Shown here piece by piece: positions 22,990-55,128 of a stretch of DNA of 63,361 nucleotides. The DNA lies in IMG/VR virus record IMGVR_UViG_3300045581_000306, positions 1-63,361 of that record. One strand, written 5' to 3'. The translations under genes and the position numbers were made by a program. Each line of letters begins with the position of its first letter. The stretch's first letter is position 1. Source of the DNA: a virus. Below the pieces are notes generated by a model. That model worked only from the letters and a program-made list of their open reading frames with translations. It was not told where the DNA came from and did not search any database.

Positions 22990-23015
22990 ATTTATTTATT
23001 TAAAAGTTTTTATCT

Positions 23016-23096
23016 TGCGTGGATGGGACTTGAACCCATACAGGATTGCTCCTAGCAGATTTTAAGTCTGCTGCGTCTGCCATTTCGCCACCACGC
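23016..23096 (-). tRNA. tRNA-Leu (anticodon TAA)
   Basis: The minus strand folds as a cloverleaf: acceptor GCGTGG/CCACGC with one mismatch at position 7, anticodon stem GCAGA/TCTGC around loop CTTAAAA (anticodon TAA), a variable arm, T-arm ATGGG-TTCAAGT-CCCAT and discriminator A. CCA is not encoded. It lies between the scaffold-like and glycosyltransferase genes. Confidence 0.88.
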
Positions 23097-23102
23097 AATT
23101 TT

Positions 23103-41411: not shown

Positions 41412-42158
41412 TCAGGCAGGGAGCGCGTCAATGATCTCTTGATATCTAGCGTTATAAGCCTTGCTGTTTCTGCGTCCCGTTAACTTGGCGGCTATTTCTG
41501 AAAGGATATTAATTGCGCGATCAGAAGGGATATTACCTTTCAAGATTTCGCGGGAAACGCTACCAGCAAATTGATGAGGTTGGTCATCGGCGAAACGCTC
41601 CAGAATATTGCGTCCGAAAGCGGCAATGATTTTATCTATGCGAGACGATTTCTCGGCATTCTTTGCGGCGAGATAGGGAGCGATCAATTCGGCGGCAACC
41701 TTCGCGCAATGCTGACCATCACCAGAGTTCCATGTGGCAACGAAAGACACATATTCTGGGTCGGTGGTGACAAGGTCGCGAAGTGATTTGCCAGCATATT
41801 TCCCAAAAGGAAGGATGCTCCAGTCGGTGGTGCGAATGCGTTCTGCTTCACGCTCGCGTTCTGCTTCTAATGCCTCGGCAGATCGGCGTTGGATTTCGGA
41901 CAAGTCCCAATCGATATCAAGTCTGCGACGACGAGGATCGACTCCATGCTCGTCGAGCCATGCGTTAGCGGCAACGAGTGCCTGATCCTTGTCAGTAGAA
42001 AGGTTTTTGATGAACTGATCACGCTCGGCAATTTGAGCCTCAACTGCACCAGTCTGCTCGTAGCCCTCGCTGCGAACATAAATGGTTTCATCGAACCTGT
42101 GCTTGAGAGTGTAAAACCCGTTAAGGTCACCCGTGGAGATGTAGTAGTAGTTTTTCAT
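41412..42158 (-). CDS. Early protein with ExoX-C-like domain
   Basis: 248 residues. N-terminal part MKNYYYISTGDLNGFYTLKH and a helical middle rich in Arg/Glu; then ILPFGKYAGKSLRDLVTTDP and EYVSFVATWN, like the small 'FGKYKGK' domain at the C-terminus of ExoX-type exonucleases, without the exonuclease itself. The C-terminal 90 residues are helical. It is read from promoter P4 with a leader of about four bases. Function unknown; DNA-related by domain. Confidence 0.65.
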   Translation of the reverse strand: MKNYYYISTGDLNGFYTLKHRFDETIYVRSEGYEQTGAVEAQIAERDQFIKNLSTDKDQALVAANAWLDEHGVDPRRRRLDIDWDLSEIQRRSAEALEAEREREAERIRTTDWSILPFGKYAGKSLRDLVTTDPEYVSFVATWNSGDGQHCAKVAAELIAPYLAAKNAEKSSRIDKIIAAFGRNILERFADDQPHQFAGSVSREILKGNIPSDRAINILSEIAAKLTGRRNSKAYNARYQEIIDALPA

Positions 42159-42168
42159 TAGGATTTGA

Positions 42169-42222
42169 AATTAACCCAAGCAAGTTGGGTGGTCAATAAC
42201 TTTTTTTTGCTGCTGTGTCATA
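42169..42222 (-). promoter_or_regulatory. Early promoter P4
   Basis: Minus strand: TATGACA (42222-42216), 19 bases, TTGACC (-35, 42196-42191), ACCCAA immediately after, 16-base spacer, TTAATT (-10, 42174-42169). The start codon is 10 bases beyond the -10 box, so the mRNA is nearly leaderless. Confidence 0.65.
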
Positions 42223-42472
42223 GCCACTCGTTGTGCGCTAGACCCTTTGCCAAGGCCCATCGGCAGACATCTGCTGTATTCCGAAAACCAAATTTCCGGT
42301 GCAGAGATTCACGATGTTTTTCGACTGTCTTGATGCTGATACCGAGGATATCGGCGATTTGCGGATTCGTGTTTCCTGCCGCGATTAATCCAGCAACCTC
42401 CTGCTCGCGCCGCGATGCTTTCGGCAGCTTGCCCGCTTTCGCTTCAAATAATTTTTCGATGAGAGATTTCAT
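42218..42472 (-). CDS. LuxR-type helix-turn-helix protein
   Basis: 84 residues, essentially a GerE/LuxR DNA-binding domain: KASRREQEVAGLIAAGNTNP then QIADILGISIKTVEKHRESL and HRKFGFRNTADVCRWAL. No signal-sensing domain is present. It could switch phage transcription, for example at the promoters nearby, or interfere with host regulators. It follows the T-loop hairpin of the DUF932-like gene. Confidence 0.85.
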   Translation of the reverse strand: MKSLIEKLFEAKAGKLPKASRREQEVAGLIAAGNTNPQIADILGISIKTVEKHRESLHRKFGFRNTADVCRWALAKGLAHNEWL

Positions 42473-42485
42473 TTTTTGGAAAGAT

Positions 42486-42510
42486 GGGGCGAGGGATTGA
42501 ACCTCGCCCC
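42486..42510 (-). terminator. T-loop hairpin after the DUF932-like gene
   Basis: Perfect 9-bp stem GGGGCGAGG / CCUCGCCCC with 7-base loop UUCAAUC, eight bases past the stop. The loop and closing pairs match a tRNA T-arm exactly, but no other tRNA arm is present. No U-tract follows. Confidence 0.6.
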
Positions 42511-42518
42511 GGTTGAGA

Positions 42519-43301
42519 TCAGTTGTTCAGCAGGTACTGCTCGGTGAGGTTCCAGAGTTGCTTGTTGACCTTGAAGTCTGTTGTAGGTGCTGTGACTCGG
42601 CGAATGCCAGAACCGGGGCGGCCTTTGACGAGGTTTTCTTGAACTCTGTTGAAGGTGTGCCAGAGGTTGGTTCCAGAGTCATTGTAGCGGCGAGCGCGGT
42701 TGAGGTAGAACAGGCGAGTGTCCCACTCCCGGCGATCTGCGTAGTCCGCATCCGCTTCAGGTTGGTCGTAGCGGAGCTTGAGTGCATCGACCAGATACTG
42801 CTGCTGCGCGGCAGGCGTGAGTTCCTTCTGTTTGAATAAGTGGACTCGTTCGGCGAGTTGCGGGACATTGTCGCGGAGAGTTGTAGCGGCATCGAGGAAA
42901 CGATTCACATCGACCGAGCGATGGTAGATTTTGATCGTCTCGAAAATGTCTCCGGTCACCAATCCGTTCAAGCAAGCGAAGACTTGCAAGCCAACGGAGA
43001 GTTGAGCGGAGCTAGTGCCATCATGCGAGTTGATCAGAACGAACTCTGGGGAGGCTTCGCCAGCAATTGTGATGTTGTCACGATGACCGAAACGAATCAG
43101 ATGCTTTTGGAATCCCTTGTTCTCGTCCTTCCTCGCTTTGGCGAGTTGGATTTGGCGAGGCACATAGCCGTTCTCTTGGAAAGAGGAAACGATCTGTTGG
43201 GTCGATATGAATCCGTAGCGTTCGCTACGAGTGGATGAAGCGTGAGTCGCTTCGACTGGGTTTGTGTTCACGATGTCGAGTGATGGGATGATGATGCTCA
43301 T
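42519..43301 (-). CDS. DUF932-like early protein
   Basis: 260 residues from ATG at 43301. Sequence includes RYGFISTQQIVSSFQENGYV, HLIRFGHRDNITIAGEASPE, FVLINSHDGTSSAQLSVGLQ and WDTRLFYLNRARRYNDSGTN then LWHTFNRVQENLVKG, characteristic of DUF932 (LGT-like) proteins of phages and plasmids. Role unknown. The 59-base spacer before it is duplicated upstream. Confidence 0.75.
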   Translation of the reverse strand: MSIIIPSLDIVNTNPVEATHASSTRSERYGFISTQQIVSSFQENGYVPRQIQLAKARKDENKGFQKHLIRFGHRDNITIAGEASPEFVLINSHDGTSSAQLSVGLQVFACLNGLVTGDIFETIKIYHRSVDVNRFLDAATTLRDNVPQLAERVHLFKQKELTPAAQQQYLVDALKLRYDQPEADADYADRREWDTRLFYLNRARRYNDSGTNLWHTFNRVQENLVKGRPGSGIRRVTAPTTDFKVNKQLWNLTEQYLLNN

Positions 43302-43357
43302 TGTATTGGGTCTTTCTGTTGATGGGTTGTGTTCTGGGAGGAACAAAGATTAGAAGC
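43299..43357. repeat. Duplicated 59-base intergenic spacer, copy 1
   Basis: Matches 43533-43591 at 56 of 59 bases. It spans from the ATG of the DUF932-like gene to the last codon of the upstream gene and contains a short GTTC-CTCCCA-GAAC hairpin. Confidence 0.9.
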
Positions 43358-43535
43358 TGAAGCTGCAATCGCAGTTGTCGCAGATTCCGTAGTCCACACC
43401 ATCTGTGCGAACATCGGTGGAGCGGCATTCTGGGCATTGTTGTGCGGTTGCCGTCTTGAACCATTGCTGGCGATTGTTAGCGATTTTGGTGAGGGTGTCT
43501 TGATCGTTGTCGAGGAGTGCTTCGATGATGTTCAT
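43350..43535 (-). CDS. Zinc-ribbon early protein
   Basis: 61 residues. MNIIEALLDNDQDTLTKIAN then CPECRSTDVRTDGVDYGICD and NCDCSFSF: two CxxC zinc ligand pairs. Likely a small nucleic-acid or protein-binding factor. Both ends lie in the duplicated spacers. Confidence 0.7.
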   Translation of the reverse strand: MNIIEALLDNDQDTLTKIANNRQQWFKTATAQQCPECRSTDVRTDGVDYGICDNCDCSFSF

Positions 43536-43591
43536 TGTAGTGGGTCTTTCTGTTGATGGGTTATGTTCTGGGAGGAACAGAGATTAGAAGC
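43533..43591. repeat. Duplicated 59-base intergenic spacer, copy 2
   Basis: Second copy of the spacer at 43299-43357, with three mismatches. It links the 43584-43955 gene to the zinc-ribbon gene. A duplication of the gene-flanking sequence or recombination cassette. Confidence 0.9.
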
Positions 43592-43955
43592 GGATGAAGT
43601 GAATCGGGTCGCTCACATGGCAGCCAACGAGTCGAACTGTGAAGACTTCACCTTCGATCTCGACCTTTTGCCCATTGTGCAGTTCGACTGCTTCGGCAAT
43701 GTCCTTGAGGTATGCTGCGTGTGCCTCTGCCTTGCCGGGATAGTCTGCCGTCAGGCAAGCGGCATCTTGGTTTGTCCATGCTGTTGGGTGACCATTATTG
43801 ATTGCGCGTTGGTGCGCTTCCTCTTGGTTGTCGTTGTATTCAGCAGAATATCCGCGAGCGGTTCCAACCGAGATGCGTTGAGCGTATACTGGGAATCCAG
43901 CACCGCGAACAGTCTGGTTGTGTTGGAGAGTCAGGATGGAGTTTGTAGTGGTCAT
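43584..43955 (-). CDS. Early hypothetical protein
   Basis: 123 residues from ATG at 43955, selected because promoter P3 lies upstream of it at 44012-44067; longer frames would begin inside the promoter. MTTTNSILTLQHNQTVRGAG, then an Ala/Glu-rich helical middle and a beta end (GQKVEIEGEVFTVRLVGCHV). Not recognised. Confidence 0.65.
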   Translation of the reverse strand: MTTTNSILTLQHNQTVRGAGFPVYAQRISVGTARGYSAEYNDNQEEAHQRAINNGHPTAWTNQDAACLTADYPGKAEAHAAYLKDIAEAVELHNGQKVEIEGEVFTVRLVGCHVSDPIHFIRF

Positions 43956-44011
43956 TTTTGTAGTTTCTATTTTTGGTTTGGTTCGTCGGCTTCGTGCCTT
44001 CGATGGGAATG

Positions 44012-44067
44012 ACAATATCGAACCTGCTTGGGTTTGCAACAGAAAAATAAAAATATTTTTTGTCATA
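44012..44067 (-). promoter_or_regulatory. Early promoter P3
   Basis: Minus strand: TATGACA (44067-44061), 21 bases, TTGCAA (-35, 44039-44034), ACCCAA, total spacer 16 bases, TATTGT (-10, 44017-44012). The leader of about 50 bases resembles that of P1 (TCG-AGGCAC...GCC-ACGA...GAACCAAA). Confidence 0.75.
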
Positions 44068-44115
44068 GAAAAAATTCTTTTAAATTTCTATTGACACCCG
44101 CAGATGCCGATTAAA

Positions 44116-44286
44116 TCAGGCTTCGCAGGCTACCGCAACTTTGCGTGGTCTTCCACCCTTCATTCCATTGAGTGCTGCCGCCAATCTTTTTTTGTCGCTC
44201 GTTGCGCTTCCACCACGCTTTCCGATCTCCGAAAGGAATCGGCGTACAGGCGAGGGAAGAGGATCATTTTTCGTTTTTGTGTTCAT
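44116..44286 (-). CDS. Small basic early protein
   Basis: 56 residues from ATG at 44286. Contains FLSEIGKRGGSATSDKKRLA then AALNGMKGGRPRKVAVA, resembling small bacterial 'GRKGG...ARAAAKARW' proteins and a GRPRK AT-hook-like motif. Likely DNA-binding. It overlaps the end of the preceding small gene. Confidence 0.6.
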   Translation of the reverse strand: MNTKTKNDPLPSPVRRFLSEIGKRGGSATSDKKRLAAALNGMKGGRPRKVAVACEA

Positions 44287-44416
44287 TAGATTTTTTGTGT
44301 GCTGACCAATCAATGGCAGCGAAGTTTTCTTGGTACTGCTTGGATTGCGTGTCGGTGCGGGGTTTGTCACCCTTTCCGTTTCTCGTCCACTCGCTGTCTT
44401 TAACTTTTTGGCTCAT
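44264..44416 (-). CDS. 50-residue conserved phage protein
   Basis: ATG at 44416 gives MSQKVKDSEWTRNGKGDKPR then TDTQSKQYQENFAAIDW and a Lys-rich end. The 'WTRNGKGDKPR' start is a recurrent small phage protein. Overlaps both neighbours. Confidence 0.65.
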   Translation of the reverse strand: MSQKVKDSEWTRNGKGDKPRTDTQSKQYQENFAAIDWSAHKKSNEHKNEK

Positions 44417-44663
44417 CGTCGTTGAACTTTACGACATTGTCCGGTTCTTGTTTTCCGAGCGTGTCGCGGAGGTGCAACTGCTCTAGCAAAGCAGACGCAA
44501 CCATCAGGCGGAAGCTGAACAATTTTGTGTTGTGCATGAGATCATGGAACACATCGTCTTTGGTGATCTTCTCGAAATCAATCCCGGCGAGAACTGCCTC
44601 AACAGAGTTTTTGATTTCTTCCTCCGGTGTTCCCGGTGCTTCGTTGTTATTTTCTTTATTCAT
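44400..44663 (-). CDS. Early hypothetical protein
   Basis: 87 residues, acidic N-terminus (MNKENNNEAPGTPEEEIKNS), helical middle (DVFHDLMHNTKLFSFRLMVA then SALLEQLHLRDTLG). Not recognised. A/T-rich leader (AAAAAATAA before ATG). Confidence 0.6.
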   Translation of the reverse strand: MNKENNNEAPGTPEEEIKNSVEAVLAGIDFEKITKDDVFHDLMHNTKLFSFRLMVASALLEQLHLRDTLGKQEPDNVVKFNDDEPKS

Positions 44664-44874
44664 TTATTTTTTGTCTTTCATCCAACATTGAATCCGCATC
44701 GCGGAACGATAGCTCCGCAACAAGACGCGAATCCGCTTGGCTAAATTTATCTGATGCTCGATATCCCTGCAAGGCGGAACCTGCAAACCAGTCGCGCATG
44801 GACATCCCAGAGTTCGGCCTAATCGGCGGACTCTGGCTTCCCTGAACCGGGAATGCTGGATGGTTGTGCGGCAT
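44656..44874 (-). CDS. Conserved small phage protein (MRDWFAG type)
   Basis: 72 residues from ATG at 44874 (MPHNHPAFPVQGSQSPPIRP then NSGMSMRDWFAGSALQGYRA); a GTG at 44916 overlapping the upstream stop is an alternative. The 'GM(T/S)(L/M)RDWFAGQAL' pattern is widespread in phages without known role. Confidence 0.7.
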   Translation of the reverse strand: MPHNHPAFPVQGSQSPPIRPNSGMSMRDWFAGSALQGYRASDKFSQADSRLVAELSFRDADSMLDERQKINE

Positions 44875-44912
44875 GGCGCAGATATGCCATGACTGGCAAT
44901 GTAAAGCAAATA

Positions 44913-45176
44913 TCACTTCTCTTGTTCCCTTAAAGAGATGAGATGCTGAAGCAGGTACTCCTCTACTTGACCTAGAGCGTTGCGTTGCTCAATTCGATGT
45001 TCAAGTGCCTTGCTCCATGCGTCCGGGCCTTGCACATAATAGTCGCGAGAGTTGAACTCGATCTTTGCTAGTGCGTCCTGCGCGGCCCGTACGGCATCGT
45101 ATGCTGCCTCGTAGCCTGCCCAGAGGTCTTTGTAGCCTGTGCCGTTCAAGTGGACTGTTGGTGCGGTGATGTTCAT
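44913..45176 (-). CDS. Conserved small early protein
   Basis: 87 residues, MNITAPTVHLNGTGYKDLWA then GYEAAYDAVRAAQDALAKIE, followed by a helical end. This 'NGT...L...Y..A...V..A...L' form is common in phages and unexplained. ATGA-type overlap with the upstream gene. Confidence 0.7.
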   Translation of the reverse strand: MNITAPTVHLNGTGYKDLWAGYEAAYDAVRAAQDALAKIEFNSRDYYVQGPDAWSKALEHRIEQRNALGQVEEYLLQHLISLREQEK

Positions 45177-45394
45177 GGTAAAAATCCTTCGATGATGTTG
45201 CTATGTCTTGCCCCTGTAGCCTCCTGCACCCATCGGTCGAGTGTCAGTTGCTTCAGGAAGCAAACAAGTACGCTATTGCCGATCTGGTGACTTGTGGCGA
45301 GGTCTACGAAGTAAAAGTACCCGTCACCATTCCCGATAATTTCGAGGTTCAGATGCTTGATAGCTTGGTTAATTTTTTTCTTGGTGATGTTCAT
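45173..45394 (-). CDS. Early hypothetical protein
   Basis: 73 residues, MNITKKKINQAIKHLNLEII then GNGDGYFYFVDLATSHQIGN. Three neighbouring genes start MNIT, suggesting duplicated 5' ends. Not recognised. Confidence 0.65.
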   Translation of the reverse strand: MNITKKKINQAIKHLNLEIIGNGDGYFYFVDLATSHQIGNSVLVCFLKQLTLDRWVQEATGARHSNIIEGFLP

Positions 45395-45398
45395 GGTA

Positions 45399-45671
45399 TT
45401 ATTTCAATGTTGAGTTGTGGGCTTCGCAGAGTGCTTGCGCCTCTGCACGGGTTTTGAAACGAGCGAGTGCTGTTCCAGACACTCCGATCTCACAGGCGGT
45501 TTTAACGATGTAGTATTCACGCTTGCCCCGGTTGGACGAGCAGTAGGCAACAATCCATCGGGAGCGACGAGCAACCTCGATGTGTTCCAGAAGGAACTCG
45601 CGGAGGTGCGGGTATTCAGCTTTCTCCGATTGCGCGGCGAGCTTGGCGAGTGTTGTTTCGGTGATGTTCAT
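45399..45671 (-). CDS. Early hypothetical protein read from P2
   Basis: 90 residues, MNITETTLAKLAAQSEKAEY then PHLREFLLEHIEVARRSRWI. Helical, basic. The ATG lies about seven bases beyond the -10 box of promoter P2, so the message would start at or near the ATG. Not recognised. Confidence 0.65.
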   Translation of the reverse strand: MNITETTLAKLAAQSEKAEYPHLREFLLEHIEVARRSRWIVAYCSSNRGKREYYIVKTACEIGVSGTALARFKTRAEAQALCEAHNSTLK

Positions 45672-45677
45672 GTGAGT

Positions 45678-45722
45678 AGAATATCGAAGCGGGTTGGGTT
45701 TGCAAGAGGAATTTTTGTCATA
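45678..45722 (-). promoter_or_regulatory. Early promoter P2 (leaderless)
   Basis: Minus strand: TATGACA (45722-45716), 10 bases, TTGCAA (-35, 45705-45700), ACCCAA next to it, 16-base spacer, TATTCT (-10, 45683-45678). The expected transcription start coincides with the ATG at 45671. Confidence 0.75.
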
Positions 45723-45737
45723 GTGGATATCTATCTT

Positions 45738-46202
45738 TCAATTCACTCCCCAATTTCCTTCTCCATGCCGTGCGTCGAAAAGGCATTTGTAAAAGAGGTC
45801 TTTGTTCTTTTTGCAAATTCCCCTTGGGCTAACCTCAAAACCACCTTCTTTATTCACCCATACAAGACACTTTGCACCATTTGTGAGTGTCCCTTGAAAT
45901 TCAACATTGCTTGCAATAGAGTATGAAATTTGGGCTTTTGCCTTTTCCTTTGTGATCGATGCAACAGGAGCTTTGAGTCTGGTTTTGACATAAATGTAAT
46001 TAGGGTCTTCCAGATCATTGTTGTTCTGCTGAATGCGGAGCAGAGCATATGGATACAATTCATCCACTAATTTGCTTTCTCCTTCTGCCTTCACTTTTTT
46101 CTTGAGACTATGACAGTAGTCAAATGTATGAGGCGTATTGTCCAGATTGAATGGTTTTCGCTCGATCCAATTGATGTTTGATCCACAATATTTGCATTTC
46201 AT
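45738..46202 (-). CDS. First early protein, zinc-ribbon N-terminus
   Basis: 154 residues. CKYCGSNINW and later DYCHSLKKKV suggest a metal-binding N-terminus; the middle (YPYALLRIQQNNNDLEDPNY) and a beta domain follow, ending FDARHGEGNWGVN. It is the first gene after promoter P1 and probably one of the earliest expressed; the role may be host takeover. Not recognised. Confidence 0.65.
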   Translation of the reverse strand: MKCKYCGSNINWIERKPFNLDNTPHTFDYCHSLKKKVKAEGESKLVDELYPYALLRIQQNNNDLEDPNYIYVKTRLKAPVASITKEKAKAQISYSIASNVEFQGTLTNGAKCLVWVNKEGGFEVSPRGICKKNKDLFYKCLFDARHGEGNWGVN

Positions 46203-46251
46203 GGTTGTATTTTTTGGTTCGTCGTTGGCGTTGTGCCTCCGATCTGGGTTC

Positions 46252-46306
46252 AGAATACCAAATCCGCTTGGGTTATCAAGAATTATTTTTTGACTCTTGT
46301 GTCATA
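46252..46306 (-). promoter_or_regulatory. Early promoter P1
   Basis: Minus strand: TATGACA (46306-46300), 20 bases, TTGATA (-35, 46279-46274), ACCCAA adjacent, 16-base spacer, TATTCT (-10, 46257-46252). Leader of about 44 bases. It opens the early region after the late-operon hairpin. Confidence 0.75.
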
Positions 46307-46381: not shown

Positions 46382-46385
46382 GGGT

Positions 46386-46454
46386 AGCAGGACAAGGATT
46401 TGAACCTTGAACTTCAGGTTATGGGCCTGACGAGATACCTTTTCTCTATCCTGC
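46386..46454 (-). tRNA. tRNA with CAT anticodon (Met or Ile2)
   Basis: Acceptor GCAGGA/TCCTGC, short D-arm GAGA/TCTC with GG in the loop, anticodon arm TCAGG-CCCATAA-CCTGA, T-arm CAAGG-TTCAAAT-CCTTG. It is short (69 bases with discriminator U) and has one base between acceptor and D-arm, so somewhat degenerate. It could decode AUG, or AUA if modified by TilS. Confidence 0.65.
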
Positions 46455-46460
46455 GGAAAA

Positions 46461-46620: not shown

Positions 46621-49600
46621 TTATTCTACTGGAGATTTAATTCCTGTCAAAGGAGCAACCGGAGCTACAACCGGAGGCTTGAGATCGGCTAAAAGTTTTT
46701 CTGCTTTTGCCAATGCTACCTCGGCTTTTTGTTTAGCTTTTTGATCAGTTGGATCGACCTTTGCCAATTGATTCCTAGTCTCCTCTACTTTTAGTTCTGC
46801 TTTTTCTAGCTTCTTGTCTGCTTTCTTCGCATCTGCAATTGCCTTCTTTCGGGCGGCAACAAGTTGAGCGTACTCTTCTGGAGTTTTAGCATCTTTGATT
46901 TTTGTCAATTTCAACTCTGTGTCGTAAGGAACCAGTCGAACAATTTCTTTTTTCTTCGTGCCGTCTTGTTGCTCCACCTGACGCTCAAGTTGGAAAAGAG
47001 TCCCGTAACTCATCAATTCGGATACATTCTCTGCGGAGTCAGCGTAGTCGGCAGGCTCGGCCCCGGATACTTGCGCTCCATAAAGACCAAATAATTCTTT
47101 TTCATTGTACCAGAGTGCTGCCTGCATATCAGCAATGCTGATGTCAATGCCTTTTCTGCGAAGTTTCTTCTGGGCGATCTCCATGACATTTTGCTGGAAG
47201 TCACGCTCAAGATCGGTTCGTGGAGCAGCAACTGGATCAGATCGATTCTCAACCCAGTTTTTCGCAGCCCTACGGAGGTCGCTTTTCGTTTTGTATTGAC
47301 CAGACCTAAACCTGTCTTCAAGTGCTGTTGCGAAGTCCAGCATTCTTTGAGGATCATTGATCAACTCTCCAAATTCATTTTCGGTTAATCCCTCAAGTTC
47401 TGTTTCGTTGAAGTAATCAAACAAAATCTCCTTGCCTTCGCTATTAGTTTTCTTAACGAAAGGCTTGAATTCTCGACCATAGGATTCGGTTTTGTTCTTC
47501 CGATACTGTTCTAGCAATGCTTTTCGGAACGCATCGTACTGCTTTGCTTCTTTAAGTGATGCGTGTTGGAAAACATTCCCAAGAATTCTATTCCATGTCC
47601 GGGTGTACCACAGGTCTGCCGTGAGCGTTGAATAATCTCCATGCAGGTTATTGATGAACGATCCGATCTTTGGCCCAAAGACGCTAAACCCTGTCACCAT
47701 CTGATCTGACTTACCATCTACTGAAAGAGGTTCACCTTTAAAATAAAGGTTTTTATTTTTCTTCAGGTATGCGTTCCACTCGGAAACTGTCATTTTTTTC
47801 CTGAATATTTTGTCCAGAGTTTGCGTGTCGTTGTTTTTTAAAAGTTCATCGAGCTTCAGCAAATTGTTTTCAATAGCCCTAGTCTGACCTCCAAAAGTGT
47901 CATACAATAATTCTTCGCTTGCTATCTCTGGCAAGGTCTTCCCGTTCTCCAAGAGGAACTGAATCCTTGCCGCCATCTTTCCATTCTCGAAAACATTGTT
48001 GCCCTGTGAGGTGATTCCCAGCACAGAATCAAACACGAACTCTTTATCGGCGTTATAATCTTTTGAATTGCGATTCAAGAATGGGAAATACTTCGCGTAT
48101 TCAGCCTTCATTCTTTTCAAAGCTGCATCATACCACCCAATGGCATTAGGAGCGTCAGGATTCTGCTTTGCTCGCTCCATGTGTCCTACAACTTCATCCA
48201 CGATAGTCTCTGAAATAATTTGCCCTGCCCGTGGACTGTAGTCGCCGGGAGCAATAAAACCATCGTCTGCGCTTCTGCGCTGCAAAGCGTACATGAGATC
48301 GTTTACCGAGGTCTTGAGCTTGCCGTCTTTGGTGTAGAATGATTCAGGCACGACAAATTTTTCTGTGCCTTCCAGAATTGGAGTCACAGATCGGCTCAAG
48401 CCTGTCGCGGGATACAATTGCTCGCGGATATAGTCCGCAACTTCCTGACCTAGTCCGTATCGTTCTGCGAATCGGTCTGGGTCGAAGGTGAATCCTTCGC
48501 CTGCGAGGGCTTTTGCGTACGGGACAAGAACTGAATCGATACCCCCTCGGAGTAATACGGAGAGTCCTCCGGTAGTGGCGTACTCCCTGCCAATGCCGCC
48601 TGCCTCCTCGCCTCTTCCCTGCTGATCTTGTAGATTTTTTTCATTTATTGATGCTCCTTTCAGCCAATCTGGAACTCTGGTGCTTCCATCTTCTGCTGTA
48701 AAGTCTGAAGTTGTGTCATAGTAAAAAGAATCAACAAGAGTGTCGTGGAAATTTTTAATTCCTGCCGCTTTTTGGATTTCACCAAGTTTATCATAAAATC
48801 CTTCAATCCCATCAAAGTTTGCCGCCTTGATGCCTTTGCCGTCAACAGTCACCGACAACCCATCAATGCCTACTTGTTTGGCCTTTTCAAAAGCCTTCAG
48901 GATTTGATCCTCGGTCAGTTTTTTATTGTGAACCAAGTAAACAGATGGCGCACCTTCAGTCAGGCCAATGCTGGGTTTCCAAGCAATGCCTGCGTCTTGC
49001 GTCATTAAAACAGACAACCATTTTGTTATCGTCTGCGCTTGATCCCATGTCATTCCCGGCGCGGAGAAGACAAAGCTAGGTTCAGCTTCAAATTTCCATG
49101 TTCCAAGAATATTATCAAAATTGATTCCTTCCAATCCTGCCGCACTAGCTACAAATTGCTTGAATTTTTTTGTCTTGAACAATGTGGCAACTGCACTTTG
49201 CAAGGATTTCAAAGCAGTTTCTCGATCTGCCGGGAACTTGAATGGTGCTGGAGTCATACCCCGTTGAAGTTCATTGATCCGTTTAGTCAATCGGTCTACT
49301 TGCGCTACTTGGATGGCATCGTCAATGGTAAATTCCTTGTCATCTTTTGCCATGAATTCCTGAAGAAATTGATCGACTTCTTTTATTCGACTCCGGTCTT
49401 CATCGGATTTATTTTGTTTATTCAAAAGATCGTTATTCTCCCACCAAAGATTGCCGATTTCCATTAAGGCATCCCGTTTTTTATTAAATTCTTCGCTGCG
49501 CGGAGCTAATGTTTCTAAAAGGTCTTTTTTGCGTTGCTCGGAAAGTTCTAGTTCGGGTTGCAGTTTGGCAACGGATGTATATTCAAACCCGTATTTACCG

Positions 49601-52600
49601 GGCTTCCCGCCGATCACAACAGAGAAGTCTCCAGCATCTTCCTTCATGGTTTTCTCAACTTGCTTTGGTAATACAGAAGCACGAACAGGAGGCTCGACCC
49701 CCTGCAAAGGCGGAATCATGTCAGAGATGCGGCGATAGGTTTGCGGTGCTTCCACGCCTGTCATGCCTTGCGGTTCTTGCTCTGCTGGCATGAACTGCAT
49801 AACCGGGCCTACAGGCTTATCGTTTTTTTCGAGAACCTTGATTAATTTATCGTCAAAAACAACATAGTTATGAGTTCCTTCTCCAGCACCTCGGCTTATC
49901 GCATCAAAGTATTGAATACCCGGAACTCCGCGAGATAGTAAAAAGTTAGATGCTTTGGGAGCGTCTTCTGTAGGTCTGCCACCAAAGGTATTAACTAAAT
50001 GTCTGTATGCTCCCTTTCCAGAAATCGACAAAGGGTCTGGCATCGGTTCTTTAAATCGCTCTAATTCTTCTGGCTTAAATGGTTTTCCACCAGCTTTTGT
50101 TCCTTTTTTAAGAATATATTCTCTTGCATCTGATATTTTTTTAAACTCGGAAATAATGGCAGGAAGAACAGCATCTTGAACAGTTTTGCTTTGTTCGCTT
50201 AATGGCTTATCCCAGTCTAGTAATTGTTCTGGTTTTACATCAAGATCAACAGAATAGAATGTTCCTTCGCTAAATGATTTTTTAACTATATTATTTGCTT
50301 TTTCTTTTAAATCATCTGGCAATGTTTGCGATATTTCAGATAAGTAATTAGCAAATTGACCAATGTCATCAATTGCATCTAACGAAAATACAGGTGCTTC
50401 AAGTTCGTTGTATGGGCCATTCCAGCTTAATCCTTTATCAATTCTACCTTGAAGTTGACGCATTACAGCATTTGCTTCTCTGATAGGCTTTTTAGATACT
50501 TCAGACAGTTTATCTCTGTAGGATTTTGCTACATTAGGATTTCCAGAGAAATACAGTCCATAGCCATAAGCCTGCGATCCCTCTCCAGAACCTATTTTAC
50601 TAATGCTGAATTCATCAAAGTCGTAAGGTGACCCGTGGAATGCAGGGAGAAATTGTATCCCGGCGGGTGCTACAACTGCGTTAGAAAATGCAGTTCCAGA
50701 ACGAATGCGGTCTTTTAATGATTGGCGATATTGAACAACATCATTTGCTGCCGCCTCGATTTGCTGATCGGTAACATTTTCTGGTATTTGTAATGCACCA
50801 GATGATTCAACTGTTGCACGAATATGCTGCGCGAGGGTCTGCGATTTATTGTCTACTCTGCCTGAATTGTAGTCATTTACTGCTGCCAGAATTACATTTG
50901 TTGGCTCATTCATCGTATCCACATCGGTAGTCTCCGGTGCTTCAACAATGTCTTCAGTTTCCGCTTCACGATCTTCCGCTTGCGAATCTAACTTTTGGTA
51001 AATTTGCTCAAGCTCGGATTCGTATGCATTAATATTTTTGTCAGTTCCTCCAGCAGCATACATTTTATCTAATTCTGAAGATAAAAATCTTGCTCGTTCC
51101 TGTGGCATCTCGACTTCAGTCTCTACAACTTCAAGAGATGGTTTTTCTGGTTCGCTTTCCATTGGATCGAACACAGCTTGCGTAGGATCAAACATGGAGC
51201 GAACGCGAAGTTTTCCATCTTGAACATCTACATACTCGGCAGGACGCAAAAGGTCTTGTTCGTGCAATTGCAGTTCCAGAGGCTCGACATTGCCTTGCGC
51301 GGCGAGTCGTGCTAGTTCGGCATCAACTTCCATGCCTTGAGCGAACTGCTCTGGAGTTTGTAATTCAGCAAATGGATTTTCAGCCGGGAGATAGTTTTGG
51401 ACTGCTAGTTCATAGCTGAACGGCATCTTCGGCAATGCGGTTTCATCATAGCTATTGACACGATCCATGCGCCGGGAGCGGATCACAACATCGCGGCTAT
51501 CCTGCCCTCTGCGTTTTGGCAATGTGGTTCTAGCTGGGTTAGCTTCGCGAGTTTCTTTGCGATAAACATTGAACAGGTCATTGATCCTATTCTTCATGTC
51601 CATCGCGACAGCAGGGTCTGGGTGCAAGCCAATATGCCCCTGCAAGCCTGCCTTGTGATTATGCAGGTATTGCCTGACAGAATCCCAGAACTTGGTCATG
51701 TCTCCACCCCACAGGCTCAAATTGCGAGGACGCTTTGCTGCCCATGCGTTCGCCTTATCGTGCATCCGCGACAACGACATTGTTGTCATCAAAAAATTGC
51801 CTTGCTTGTCAAACTGGAATCCAATTGGGATTTCAGTCCGCATCTGCGGTTGCAACGCACGATACTTCCCATCACGCAATGCCGCCTGATATTCGATCTC
51901 TACGATGCTTCCATCTTTGCGCCCCAAGATATCGTTAAAGAATGCAATCTTGCGTTTAAGCGATGGCGCAACGAGATCGTTTGGCAATGCATTGATTGCT
52001 GCAATCTGTGTTGGAGAAAGCGTCCCGCGATAATTGCCGTTGCCCGTGTCTTCCAACCTCACTCCAGAACCATCGTCTGGTGCTTCGTCAATAACTTTTC
52101 GGATTGCTTCACCACGCTTCTTTGCGCGGCGTTTGGATTCCCGTGGAGAAAGGATGCGCGGCGATCCATCGGCATTTCTGGCAATGCGCGTGTCAACAGA
52201 AATAGATGTGCCATCAGGCATCGCTTGAAGCGGGATGTCAGGCCCAAGTGAAATAGGATTGCCTTGCTCATCCACCAACTGACCATTTGCAAAGCGATAG
52301 TCGCTGACAAACGAATCAACTTTCGCGCCCGGAGGAACGACAATCTCTTGCGTCTGACCATCCGGGGTTGTCATTTTGACAACTTGTTCCTGCTCGAAAA
52401 AGTCAGAATGCTTGTAGCGTTCTTGCAAGACTCGATTAGTTGCCAACTCTGTCAAAGGAATCTCTGGCGCATCTTTTAACGGATCGGAATTATAAACCAA
52501 TGACTCGTTCAAATCGCGCAATCCTCGTTGGTATTGGCGCATCATTGCCATTGCCTCTGGGTTTAATTGCGCCCCAATGACAGATGAGAATTGACCTTGG

Positions 52601-55128
52601 TCATCGACAACAACTCCATAATTACGCAAACCCTCTTTGATCCGCTTCAAAGCTCCGTTCTTTGTCTTGGTTTCAATCCAATCCACAACAGAACGACCAA
52701 CGGAATCCAGATTGCCTCGCAAATTGCCTTGGATGCCGCCAGAAAGCCCTGCCAACTCGGACAGGTACTCTTCCTTCATGTAGTTCCTCAACTGATCCTG
52801 ATTGGCAAATTGAGAAAGGAATGACGCGCCACCAGCAGAGTCCATTGCCGCCGCATACTGCAATGCAAATTTGTCCAAGTCTGCATCTGAAACAATGCCT
52901 TTGGAAACTGTTTCAAAAGTTCCATCAGGATTAAGAATTTTCTGGTCGAAAAGTTCTTTCCGAATCGGAGCGAGCATATCACGAACCTCTTGGAAGTTCG
53001 ACAATGCGTGTTGCATTTCGTGATTAATGACTCGACCAAGATTCAATCCATCACGCCCCATTTGGGCAACCAGATCGCCATTGATAACGACTGTCGCGCC
53101 TTTCTGGTTCTGCAACTTCAAATGCTCTGGTTGACCAGTTCTTTCTGAAATCGCAAATCCTCTGGCAGTAGATGCCCCGGCTACATCTTGCAGATATTGT
53201 TTGATCGTTTGATCGGCTAGATTGAGCAGTTCCTGCTCTGATGGTGACAATCGAGGATTGCCCACAAGCTGACGAACTACACTCTCGGCATCGGTCAATG
53301 TCTTGCCATAAAGATCGCGATAGAAATCGTCCATTTGATCAGGACGAAGAACCTTGACTTGGATGTTATTCAATCCTGCCGCTGCGCCTGTGGTCTTTGC
53401 CAAGTCCATTGCATCAGCAAAGCTCAATTGTACCTGACGCTTGATTTCAGCCTCGGTCTGCGGAGTTGATTTATCCAGACCCTTCCTTTGCTGCGTGAAA
53501 AGATCGATTTGATCTTGGATTCGCTTCTCATCTTCTTTGCGAATCTGCGCGGCTTTTTTCGCTTCAAGATTTTTGATCTTCAGATCAAGAGCAGACTTAA
53601 TGTTGTTGACATTCGACAACTCATCGATGCTGGACATCAAGGTCGGATCAGCAGTTTGAACGAATCGTTGAATATCGGCATCTTGATCCTTACGCAATTG
53701 AGCAGGATCAGGAGTGATTACGGCATCGATCTTTTCTGCAAGACCAGTTGTAGGATCAATCAATGCTGCACCACGCTCCATGAGCCTTGCGCCACTATAT
53801 GCGCCAATGCCTGCGCCAACGCCAGCAGTATAGCCTAGATCGCGAGCAGTCTCGATATCTGGCAATCCTAGTGCCACATTCAGCACCGCACCATTGACGG
53901 CAGGCTGAATGATTGCGTTGGATTGGCGTACTGCCCAGTCTGCTGCTTTTGCTCGACCTTTGCCGCCCAATGCTTCAGGCCCGAATAATTTCTTGGTTAA
54001 ATCTCCAGCAGTCGCAGCCCGTCCTGCTCGCTCAAACATTCCACGCCTACCCGGCCCAGCTTGCCCAGCAACATCTGCAATTGTTGTTGCAATACCTCTA
54101 GTCATCTTTGCTGGCAGCTTTGCTGGCAAAGCAATAAATGTATTAGCGGAAGACCTAACAAAAGTATCAGGATCACCAACTGTGTACTCTCCGATTTTGC
54201 GAGATGCGGTTTGAATTGCCTCAATGCCAGTTTCAACGCCACCAGCAGTTTTAGCCACTCCTTTTGCAAGCGGAGCAACAACACCTTTCAAGGCTAATTC
54301 GCCTGCCTTCTGCGTTACTTTACCTGTAGCTTGTCCAAATGCTTTTGTGACTGTATTTGTACCCGGCAATGAAAGCGGATTAGCTACATCAAAAAGCAAA
54401 GCAACATTTTCATTAATTTCTTCTTTCTTTAAACCAGATTCTTTTACTAGGTCTTCGTATGCTTTTTTAGCAAGTTCAGCTTCTTCTGGAGTCGCGCCTT
54501 GAGCTAATGCGGCAGCATATGCAAGTTTCTGTAATAATGGATTTTCCGACAATAAACGAGCGGCATGATCAGGATTGTCTTCGTATACTTTTTGAGAAAA
54601 CTGACGCATCCCCTCGCGGAGCATATATTTTTCAAATCGTTCGTCTTTAGACCTTCCTAATAATTTGTCAGTAATATCACTACCAAACATTGCAAACCTT
54701 ACGGCAGCATCTGCCGCTTCTTGTGATCCCTCGGCAACTCCAACTGCTCCCGATCTCCAAGTATTGCCTGCTACTTTTAATGTTTTCTCCGCTTCTTCTG
54801 GAGATTGCGACATTGCATCGATAGGTTTTAAGATGCCCTTGTAAATAAATTCACCAGCACCAGTTCCAAGTTGTTTTGCAATATTAATTCCAGTAGGAAT
54901 AAAAGTAGAGATTGCTTCAGATGCTTTTTGCGTAAATGGCTTTTCTTCTTCAGCATCAAACAAAATGCGTTCTTGATCACGGGACAGTTCTTGACCAGAT
55001 TGCTTCATTTGTTGAAGCGTGCCTACATCTTTAATTTTAGTAGGACTATTATCTAACTCATCTTCAGGAGGTCGCCATTGTTGATTTAGATTTTTATCTA
55101 ACTCATCTTCAGGAGGTTGCCAAGCCAT
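46621..55128 (-). CDS. Giant polyvalent virion protein (metalloprotease + ADP-ribosyltransferase)
   Basis: 2835 residues. The start holds a tandem duplicate (WQPPEDELD / WRPPEDELD). Around 703-707 the zinc-protease motif HEMQH occurs in RVINHEMQHALSNF. Residues about 1495-1765 match the ADP-ribosyltransferase domain of polyvalent proteins: FHGSPYDFDEFSISKIGSGE, GSQAYGYGLYFSGNPNVAKS and closing NYVVFDDKLIKVLEKN. Further conserved blocks follow (RMDRVNSYDE/MPFSYELAVQNYLP near 1230; GPKIGSFINNLHGDYSTLTA near 2490), and the C-terminus is a Lys/Glu/Ala coiled coil. Such proteins are thought to be ejected with the DNA to disarm the host. Its start is four bases past the coiled-coil gene. Confidence 0.88.
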   Translation of the reverse strand: MAWQPPEDELDKNLNQQWRPPEDELDNSPTKIKDVGTLQQMKQSGQELSRDQERILFDAEEEKPFTQKASEAISTFIPTGINIAKQLGTGAGEFIYKGILKPIDAMSQSPEEAEKTLKVAGNTWRSGAVGVAEGSQEAADAAVRFAMFGSDITDKLLGRSKDERFEKYMLREGMRQFSQKVYEDNPDHAARLLSENPLLQKLAYAAALAQGATPEEAELAKKAYEDLVKESGLKKEEINENVALLFDVANPLSLPGTNTVTKAFGQATGKVTQKAGELALKGVVAPLAKGVAKTAGGVETGIEAIQTASRKIGEYTVGDPDTFVRSSANTFIALPAKLPAKMTRGIATTIADVAGQAGPGRRGMFERAGRAATAGDLTKKLFGPEALGGKGRAKAADWAVRQSNAIIQPAVNGAVLNVALGLPDIETARDLGYTAGVGAGIGAYSGARLMERGAALIDPTTGLAEKIDAVITPDPAQLRKDQDADIQRFVQTADPTLMSSIDELSNVNNIKSALDLKIKNLEAKKAAQIRKEDEKRIQDQIDLFTQQRKGLDKSTPQTEAEIKRQVQLSFADAMDLAKTTGAAAGLNNIQVKVLRPDQMDDFYRDLYGKTLTDAESVVRQLVGNPRLSPSEQELLNLADQTIKQYLQDVAGASTARGFAISERTGQPEHLKLQNQKGATVVINGDLVAQMGRDGLNLGRVINHEMQHALSNFQEVRDMLAPIRKELFDQKILNPDGTFETVSKGIVSDADLDKFALQYAAAMDSAGGASFLSQFANQDQLRNYMKEEYLSELAGLSGGIQGNLRGNLDSVGRSVVDWIETKTKNGALKRIKEGLRNYGVVVDDQGQFSSVIGAQLNPEAMAMMRQYQRGLRDLNESLVYNSDPLKDAPEIPLTELATNRVLQERYKHSDFFEQEQVVKMTTPDGQTQEIVVPPGAKVDSFVSDYRFANGQLVDEQGNPISLGPDIPLQAMPDGTSISVDTRIARNADGSPRILSPRESKRRAKKRGEAIRKVIDEAPDDGSGVRLEDTGNGNYRGTLSPTQIAAINALPNDLVAPSLKRKIAFFNDILGRKDGSIVEIEYQAALRDGKYRALQPQMRTEIPIGFQFDKQGNFLMTTMSLSRMHDKANAWAAKRPRNLSLWGGDMTKFWDSVRQYLHNHKAGLQGHIGLHPDPAVAMDMKNRINDLFNVYRKETREANPARTTLPKRRGQDSRDVVIRSRRMDRVNSYDETALPKMPFSYELAVQNYLPAENPFAELQTPEQFAQGMEVDAELARLAAQGNVEPLELQLHEQDLLRPAEYVDVQDGKLRVRSMFDPTQAVFDPMESEPEKPSLEVVETEVEMPQERARFLSSELDKMYAAGGTDKNINAYESELEQIYQKLDSQAEDREAETEDIVEAPETTDVDTMNEPTNVILAAVNDYNSGRVDNKSQTLAQHIRATVESSGALQIPENVTDQQIEAAANDVVQYRQSLKDRIRSGTAFSNAVVAPAGIQFLPAFHGSPYDFDEFSISKIGSGEGSQAYGYGLYFSGNPNVAKSYRDKLSEVSKKPIREANAVMRQLQGRIDKGLSWNGPYNELEAPVFSLDAIDDIGQFANYLSEISQTLPDDLKEKANNIVKKSFSEGTFYSVDLDVKPEQLLDWDKPLSEQSKTVQDAVLPAIISEFKKISDAREYILKKGTKAGGKPFKPEELERFKEPMPDPLSISGKGAYRHLVNTFGGRPTEDAPKASNFLLSRGVPGIQYFDAISRGAGEGTHNYVVFDDKLIKVLEKNDKPVGPVMQFMPAEQEPQGMTGVEAPQTYRRISDMIPPLQGVEPPVRASVLPKQVEKTMKEDAGDFSVVIGGKPGKYGFEYTSVAKLQPELELSEQRKKDLLETLAPRSEEFNKKRDALMEIGNLWWENNDLLNKQNKSDEDRSRIKEVDQFLQEFMAKDDKEFTIDDAIQVAQVDRLTKRINELQRGMTPAPFKFPADRETALKSLQSAVATLFKTKKFKQFVASAAGLEGINFDNILGTWKFEAEPSFVFSAPGMTWDQAQTITKWLSVLMTQDAGIAWKPSIGLTEGAPSVYLVHNKKLTEDQILKAFEKAKQVGIDGLSVTVDGKGIKAANFDGIEGFYDKLGEIQKAAGIKNFHDTLVDSFYYDTTSDFTAEDGSTRVPDWLKGASINEKNLQDQQGRGEEAGGIGREYATTGGLSVLLRGGIDSVLVPYAKALAGEGFTFDPDRFAERYGLGQEVADYIREQLYPATGLSRSVTPILEGTEKFVVPESFYTKDGKLKTSVNDLMYALQRRSADDGFIAPGDYSPRAGQIISETIVDEVVGHMERAKQNPDAPNAIGWYDAALKRMKAEYAKYFPFLNRNSKDYNADKEFVFDSVLGITSQGNNVFENGKMAARIQFLLENGKTLPEIASEELLYDTFGGQTRAIENNLLKLDELLKNNDTQTLDKIFRKKMTVSEWNAYLKKNKNLYFKGEPLSVDGKSDQMVTGFSVFGPKIGSFINNLHGDYSTLTADLWYTRTWNRILGNVFQHASLKEAKQYDAFRKALLEQYRKNKTESYGREFKPFVKKTNSEGKEILFDYFNETELEGLTENEFGELINDPQRMLDFATALEDRFRSGQYKTKSDLRRAAKNWVENRSDPVAAPRTDLERDFQQNVMEIAQKKLRRKGIDISIADMQAALWYNEKELFGLYGAQVSGAEPADYADSAENVSELMSYGTLFQLERQVEQQDGTKKKEIVRLVPYDTELKLTKIKDAKTPEEYAQLVAARKKAIADAKKADKKLEKAELKVEETRNQLAKVDPTDQKAKQKAEVALAKAEKLLADLKPPVVAPVAPLTGIKSPVE

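Follow-up and report, generated by a model that had tools for sequence, protein, structure and literature searches.

A 17-bp dyad in the spacer of four early-type promoters as a putative operator in an uncultured phage family, with a GerE-type protein as candidate regulator

Introduction

In lambdoid phages, CI and Cro bind the operators OR and OL. These operators are 17-bp dyads that are common to several promoters, have one better and one poorer half-site, overlap the promoters, and adjoin the regulator gene. We analyzed a comparable arrangement in IMGVR_UViG_3300045581_000306 (G000), a phage record of IMG/VR whose whole length of 63,361 bp is called the window here. Four promoters (P1–P4) on the minus strand of the window share a 17-bp dyad, a putative operator, which likewise overlaps the promoters, pairs a better with a poorer half-site, and lies beside the gene of a presumed regulator. 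The lambda operators are tandem triplets, whereas those of the window are single, centred in the spacer, and confined to one strand. A divergent CI/Cro gene pair was not present, no CI- or Cro-like protein was found among the proteins scanned, and the candidate regulator is of the GerE type.

Stand-alone GerE-type regulators have been described in bacteria. Bacillus GerE is a stand-alone protein of 74 residues (PMC5595907) and acts directly on sigmaK promoters (PMC4750369). The cyanobacterial PedR is an activator of some genes and a repressor of others, its own operon among the latter (PMC13421787, PMC4361706). The candidate from the window resembles them in being a small protein made up essentially of the GerE domain alone. 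It differs in being phage-borne and known here by sequence, and a binding consensus common to it and them was not demonstrable. Aeromonas phages ARM81ld and Apop encode LuxR-type quorum-sensing receptors (PMC6456758, PMC10432266), which share with the candidate a phage-encoded GerE/LuxR DNA-binding domain. However, in those receptors an N-terminal domain binds homoserine lactone, and their role is the control of lysis-lysogeny, whereas the protein studied here has 84 residues and a putative role in early-gene control.

Results

The window contained only four sites, all on the minus strand, in which TATGACA was followed after 10, 19, 20, or 21 nucleotides (nt) by TTGNNN, ACCCAA, 10 nt, and a -10 box (Table 1). 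The core TTGNNNACCCAA was present in four copies, at 42196, 44039, 45705, and 46279 on the minus strand, against an expectation of 0.64. None of 100 shuffles reached four copies. This layout, with a spacer of 16 between TTGNNN and the -10 hexamer in all four sites as written, had been described in a first-pass annotation of this DNA and was borne out at every place given there. At P1, an alternative -10 box, TAATTT at spacer 17, is equal to or better than TTAATT. In relatives, the spacers were 16 or 17. Nearly all sites combined TTGNNN with TATTNT- or TAATNT-like boxes 16–17 bp apart, as sigma70-type promoters do. From these hexamers we infer that P1–P4 are ordinary host-sigma70-type promoters, their activity being predicted.

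A 17-bp inverted repeat, ACCCAA-N5-TTGGGT, occupies the -35/-10 spacer, and ACCCAA is its left half. The repeat starts directly after the -35 hexamer and takes in the first base of the -10 box, a span of roughly -28 to -12. The annotation had correctly called ACCCAA constant within the spacer; a reading of it as a lone hexamer or an "extra upstream element" needs correction, the hexamer being one half-site of an operator-like dyad. In a sliding comparison, the window sites matched TTGGGT behind ACCCAA at 19 of 24 positions with a gap of 5, and at 12 of 24 with the next best gap. Over all gaps, none of 20,000 random sets of four scored above 18. Over 18 sites, gap 5 gave 86/108 matches, against 51/108 for the gap that came next. 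The right half was perfect in P1, matched at five of six positions in P4, and at four of six in P2 and P3. The degenerate right halves mostly still fit a half-site (A/T)(C/T)C(C/G/A)AA when the opposite strand is read. The same dyad overlaps several early promoters, as in a phage repressor/operator regulon.

Could the inverted repeat act at the RNA level, forming a hairpin that terminates or attenuates the upstream unit? This would be plausible for P1 only, where a possible 6-bp stem and 5-nt loop are followed by a T-rich stretch. P2–P4 retain just 4–5 of the 6 pairs, and conservation concerns the letters rather than the pairing: no compensatory change was seen, and the repeat keeps a fixed place relative to the -35 and -10 boxes. 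We consider a hairpin function highly improbable.

To define the family, 2.9 million viral contigs were scanned with a strict pattern, which gave 12 stretches, 8 of them from the same phage family. Further relatives were added by searches with a neighbouring protein and with the GerE-type protein. After removal of near-identical contigs, about ten members were left: G000, G001, G002, G004 (=G008), G005 (=G006, G009), G007, G010, G011, G012, and G014. P1, P2, and P4 were syntenic in most members. P3 or P3-like sites were found in five (G000, G001, G005, G011, and G012), and variant P1 sites in G001, G011, and G012. The presence of the motif in relatives had been named beforehand as a condition for the prediction to stand, and about ten relatives carry it. 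Chance resemblance among A/T-rich intergenic regions, which has the small number of sites as its sole point, is refuted by the shuffles and by these related contigs that keep the module; we regard it as practically negligible. Other matches, namely the viral contigs L014, L019, L021, and L024 and the contigs L095, L096, and L100 from a P1-type scan, were set aside as chance hits, with no related promoter context seen.

The half-sites of P1 were invariant in most lineages, and the five bases between them varied (cttgc, agcgg, attgc, and gatgc). In several relatives, the upstream context of P1 and the gene downstream had changed; other genes replaced 41412-42158, and P1 was retained. In G012, the right half of P2 is a perfect TTGGGT and the left half of P1 is TCCGAA; both half-sites therefore wander around one consensus. 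Further variants are seen in G001, where two P3-like promoters have the half-sites TCCCAA/TTGGAT and TCCCAA/TTTGAT. These two lie in tandem (L055, 17700-17930) before short genes starting with MN(I/T), with half-site TCCCAA and spacers of 17–18 bp.

A position weight matrix was built from 19 sites, and member sites scored 30–39 bits. Across the whole window, the four sites scored 33–38 bits and no fifth site above 10 bits was found. Outside the early promoters, scores were at most 16 bits in roughly 60 kb each of G002 and G004. Bacteroidetes-type promoters have TTTG at -33 and TANNTTTG at -7. That promoter type was also considered and rejected, as TAATTTTG was seen only in P1 of G002 and G014 and is not general.

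Host factors are often put to use by the early promoters of phages, and a phage may borrow a host operator. When 84,980 bacterial and archaeal genomes were searched with the strict 28-bp pattern, only 27 matches were obtained. They were scattered over unrelated taxa, nearly all in long open frames, and formed no promoter set of any host group. A recognisable host regulon is therefore ruled against at the strictness of this pattern, which argues for a phage-specific regulator, and we rate a host regulator as very unlikely. A search of the literature for an ACCCAA motif in phage promoters found no relevant paper.

The TATGACA element lies 10 nt from TTG at P3, 19 nt at P1, 19–20 nt at P4, and 21–22 nt at P2 when relatives are included, that is, one or two helical turns. 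The annotation had called this distance variable; it does differ between sites, yet it is not random. The joint chance that each of the four sites has a TATGACA within that interval was about 2e-11, with the upstream 60 nt shuffled and base composition alone considered. TATGACA by itself was mildly enriched across the window, with 13 copies against 7.2 expected, and no operator promoter was found behind the other TATGACA(A/C)A copies. The 19-nt distance of P1 recurred in G004, G007, G010, and G012. The 10-nt distance of P3 was common to G005 and G012, and G011 has TATAACA at 10 nt. P1 of G002, G005, and G014 has no TATGACA, and neither do the G001 sites. Behind TATGACA come A/T tracts similar to UP elements, P2 being the clearest case. 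These features suggest that TATGACA and the A/T tract probably strengthen the action of polymerase or contact an activator. The view that the promoter family of this early-type region carries elements beyond the needs of sigma70 was supported.

If the dyad is an operator, repression is considerably more likely than activation. Because the dyad reaches as far as the first base of the -10 box, its geometry is that of a repressor operator. By established promoter biology, repression would be by steric block because of the position at -28 to -12, the normal spacer length, and the recognisable hexamers. Alternatively, the spacer motif might be an activator site, or mark a promoter class for a phage-modified RNA polymerase, so that P1–P4 would be middle promoters, silent until a phage factor appears. 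ACCCAA is almost invariant and the -10 boxes are moderate (TATTNT), and TATGACA, the other conserved element, is spaced by helical turns, all of which would suit such a class. However, a protein at this position blocks polymerase unless a MerR mechanism operates; MerR-type dyads sit in spacers of 19–20 bp, and the spacers here are 16–17 bp. The -35 and -10 hexamers are usable unaided, and no phage sigma factor or RNA polymerase was found among the proteins scanned. We judge this alternative unlikely.

One symmetric site is shared by four promoters and about ten relatives, and a single virus-made protein therefore probably controls the set. The plausible leading candidate, already raised in the annotation, is the 84-residue GerE-type protein, whose gene is located downstream of P2 and ends immediately before P1. 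It matched Pfam PF00196 with an E value of 1.2e-15 (57.3 bits against a cut-off of 23.5) and was the sole transcription-factor match among about 45 proteins scanned. It consists of the DNA-binding GerE domain only, with no N-terminal autoinducer-binding domain. The structure model, with a predicted local distance difference test score of 80.5, showed a predicted four-helix, GerE-like fold. Its fold matches included Bacillus subtilis GerE (1fse) and chains of the LiaR DNA-binding domain, with probability 1.00 and E values of only 0.001–0.01. The protein was kept in 8 of 9 records tested, with its place beside P1 conserved, and all motif-bearing family records hold it except G001, a fragment of 19.6 kb. 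Its recognition helix LGISIKTVEKHR was invariant across five lineages, down to 62% identity; the GerE-type protein of L069 has LEISIKTVEKHR in this position.

Several observations weigh against the proposed operator and this binder. The right half-sites of P2–P4 are degenerate. The sister clade G013, G015, and G016 keeps the GerE-type protein (61–62% identity), DUF932, and RecT, yet lacks such promoters, and a search there for a variant of the motif revealed none that was recognisable. Published LuxR-type sites are not discriminating, since 44% of random 30-mers match the PedR-type site RWWTRGGYNNYY (PMC13421787) at 8 of 10 positions. The half-site was likened to this site and to the NarL site TACYYMT (PMC4886647), and the fit was no better than random. 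Furthermore, three small early proteins (44913-45176, 44400-44663, and 44116-44304) track the motif more faithfully than GerE does. All motif-bearing lineages with good coverage that were tested had the three proteins, and the sister clade had none of them, so one of them could bind the dyad instead. The last, a 62-residue protein on the minus strand, has an AT-hook-like GGRPRK end. However, an AT-hook, which binds in the minor groove of A/T sequence, would not recognise ACCCAA, and none of the three has a recognised DNA-binding domain above the Pfam cut-off. GerE-type domains bind dyads of this kind. We see binding by another phage protein, such as these three, as a minority possibility to be taken seriously. 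Because the sister clade lacks the motif, the small proteins co-vary with it, and the consensus fit is at chance level, we regard the GerE-type protein as the putative binder as an even call, and binding by some phage-encoded protein as very probable.

Table 1. Features of the P1–P4 region, positions in the window
Feature	Position	Strand	Basis or remark
P1 TATGACA, includes TGA stop of GerE-type gene	42216..42222	-	19 nt from TTG
P1 -35 hexamer TTGACC	42191..42196	-	pattern match
P1 putative operator ACCCAA-cttgc-TTGGGT, perfect dyad	42174..42190	-	dyad comparison, relatives
P1 -10 box TTAATT (or TAATTT 42168-42173)	42169..42174	-	pattern match
P2 TATGACA, then A/T-rich UP-like stretch	44061..44067	-	21 nt from TTG
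P2 -35 hexamer TTGCAA	44034..44039	-	pattern match
P2 putative operator ACCCAA-gcagg-TTCGAT, imperfect	44017..44033	-	dyad comparison; TTGGGT in G012
P2 -10 box TATTGT	44012..44017	-	pattern match and alignment with relatives
P3 TATGACA	45716..45722	-	10 nt from TTG
P3 -35 hexamer TTGCAA	45700..45705	-	pattern match
P3 putative operator ACCCAA-cccgc-TTCGAT	45683..45699	-	dyad comparison
P3 -10 box TATTCT	45678..45683	-	pattern match
P4 TATGACA	46300..46306	-	20 nt from TTG
P4 -35 hexamer TTGATA	46274..46279	-	pattern match
P4 putative operator ACCCAA-gcgga-TTTGGT	46257..46273	-	dyad comparison
P4 -10 box TATTCT	46252..46257	-	pattern match
84-residue GerE/LuxR-type DNA-binding protein, candidate regulator	42218..42472	-	Pfam GerE PF00196
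First gene after P1 (weak ExoX-like C-terminal match)	41412..42158	-	ATG 10 nt downstream of -10 box
DUF932 gene within P2 unit	42519..43301	-	profile match
First gene after P2	43584..43955	-	open reading frame
First gene after P3	45399..45671	-	open reading frame; ATG 6 nt downstream of -10 box
First gene after P4	45738..46202	-	open reading frame

The minus strand holds nearly all long open reading frames (ORFs) of the window. Genes for RecT-like, DUF2800, primosomal, and DnaC-like proteins follow the region of 42.1–46.3 kb, and on this gene content the region may reasonably be called "early". P1–P4 serve genes for DUF932, RecT-like, DUF2800, primosomal, and DnaC-like helicase-loader proteins. 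Among 50,697 records of isolated phages, no close relative was found by the DNA of the region or by the terminase, and DUF932 and GerE gave distant matches only.

The start codons of P3 and P1 follow their -10 boxes closely (intervals 45672-45677 and 42159-42168). From its 6-nt interval, the P3 mRNA is therefore probably leaderless, and the P1 mRNA would be leaderless or nearly so. P2 and P4, unlike P1 and P3, have leaders of about 50 nt. Both leaders (43955-44011 and 46200-46251, minus strand) hold ATCGAAGGC-N5-GCC-GACGAACCAAA, as do those of relatives. This shared motif may form a small 5' hairpin, with GGC/GCC in 9 of 9 and the outer UCG/CGA in 7 of 9; there were no compensatory changes. 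TTYTATCGGCATCTGCGGGTGTCAATAG lies upstream of P2 (44068-44115, minus strand), just past the ORF 44116-44304, and was largely kept in all aligned relatives, including G001. In the sister clade (L146-L148 = G013, G015, G016), repeated AATAAATAAATAAAT leaders without a Shine-Dalgarno-like sequence precede several genes.

Two tRNA genes were found in the window, Leu(taa) at 23014-23098 and Met(cat) at 46383-46455, the latter directly upstream of P4. A polyvalent-type protein of 2,835 residues (46621-55128, minus strand) showed a weak ADP-ribosyltransferase (ART-PolyVal) match.

Discussion

Our preferred reading, held with modest confidence, is that P1–P4 are sigma70-type promoters with an operator for a phage-encoded repressor in the spacer, which would bring about a coordinated shut-off of early transcription. 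A dimeric phage-encoded protein would bind all four dyads and block RNA polymerase, resulting in coordinated shut-off of, or negative feedback on, the early and DNA-metabolism genes. With an early product repressing its own and neighbouring early promoters, the early burst would limit itself. P1, with its perfect dyad behind the GerE-type gene, would be the tightest site and would be shut first. TATGACA and the A/T tract, one or two helical turns upstream, probably make the promoters stronger through a UP-type or activator contact. In a more specific version, the stand-alone GerE/LuxR domain would act as a Cro-like shut-off repressor of the early promoter set, with TATGACA serving a further factor; this version is tentative, and we think it somewhat more apt to be wrong than right.

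The analysis provides a concrete and testable early regulon, with predicted promoters, a putative operator, and a candidate regulator, for an uncultured phage family without a close relative among the phage records searched. The dyad is also a usable marker of the family, as a pattern scan with it retrieved many relatives. If the proposal is true, the proteins known to switch off early transcription in phages would gain a new type.

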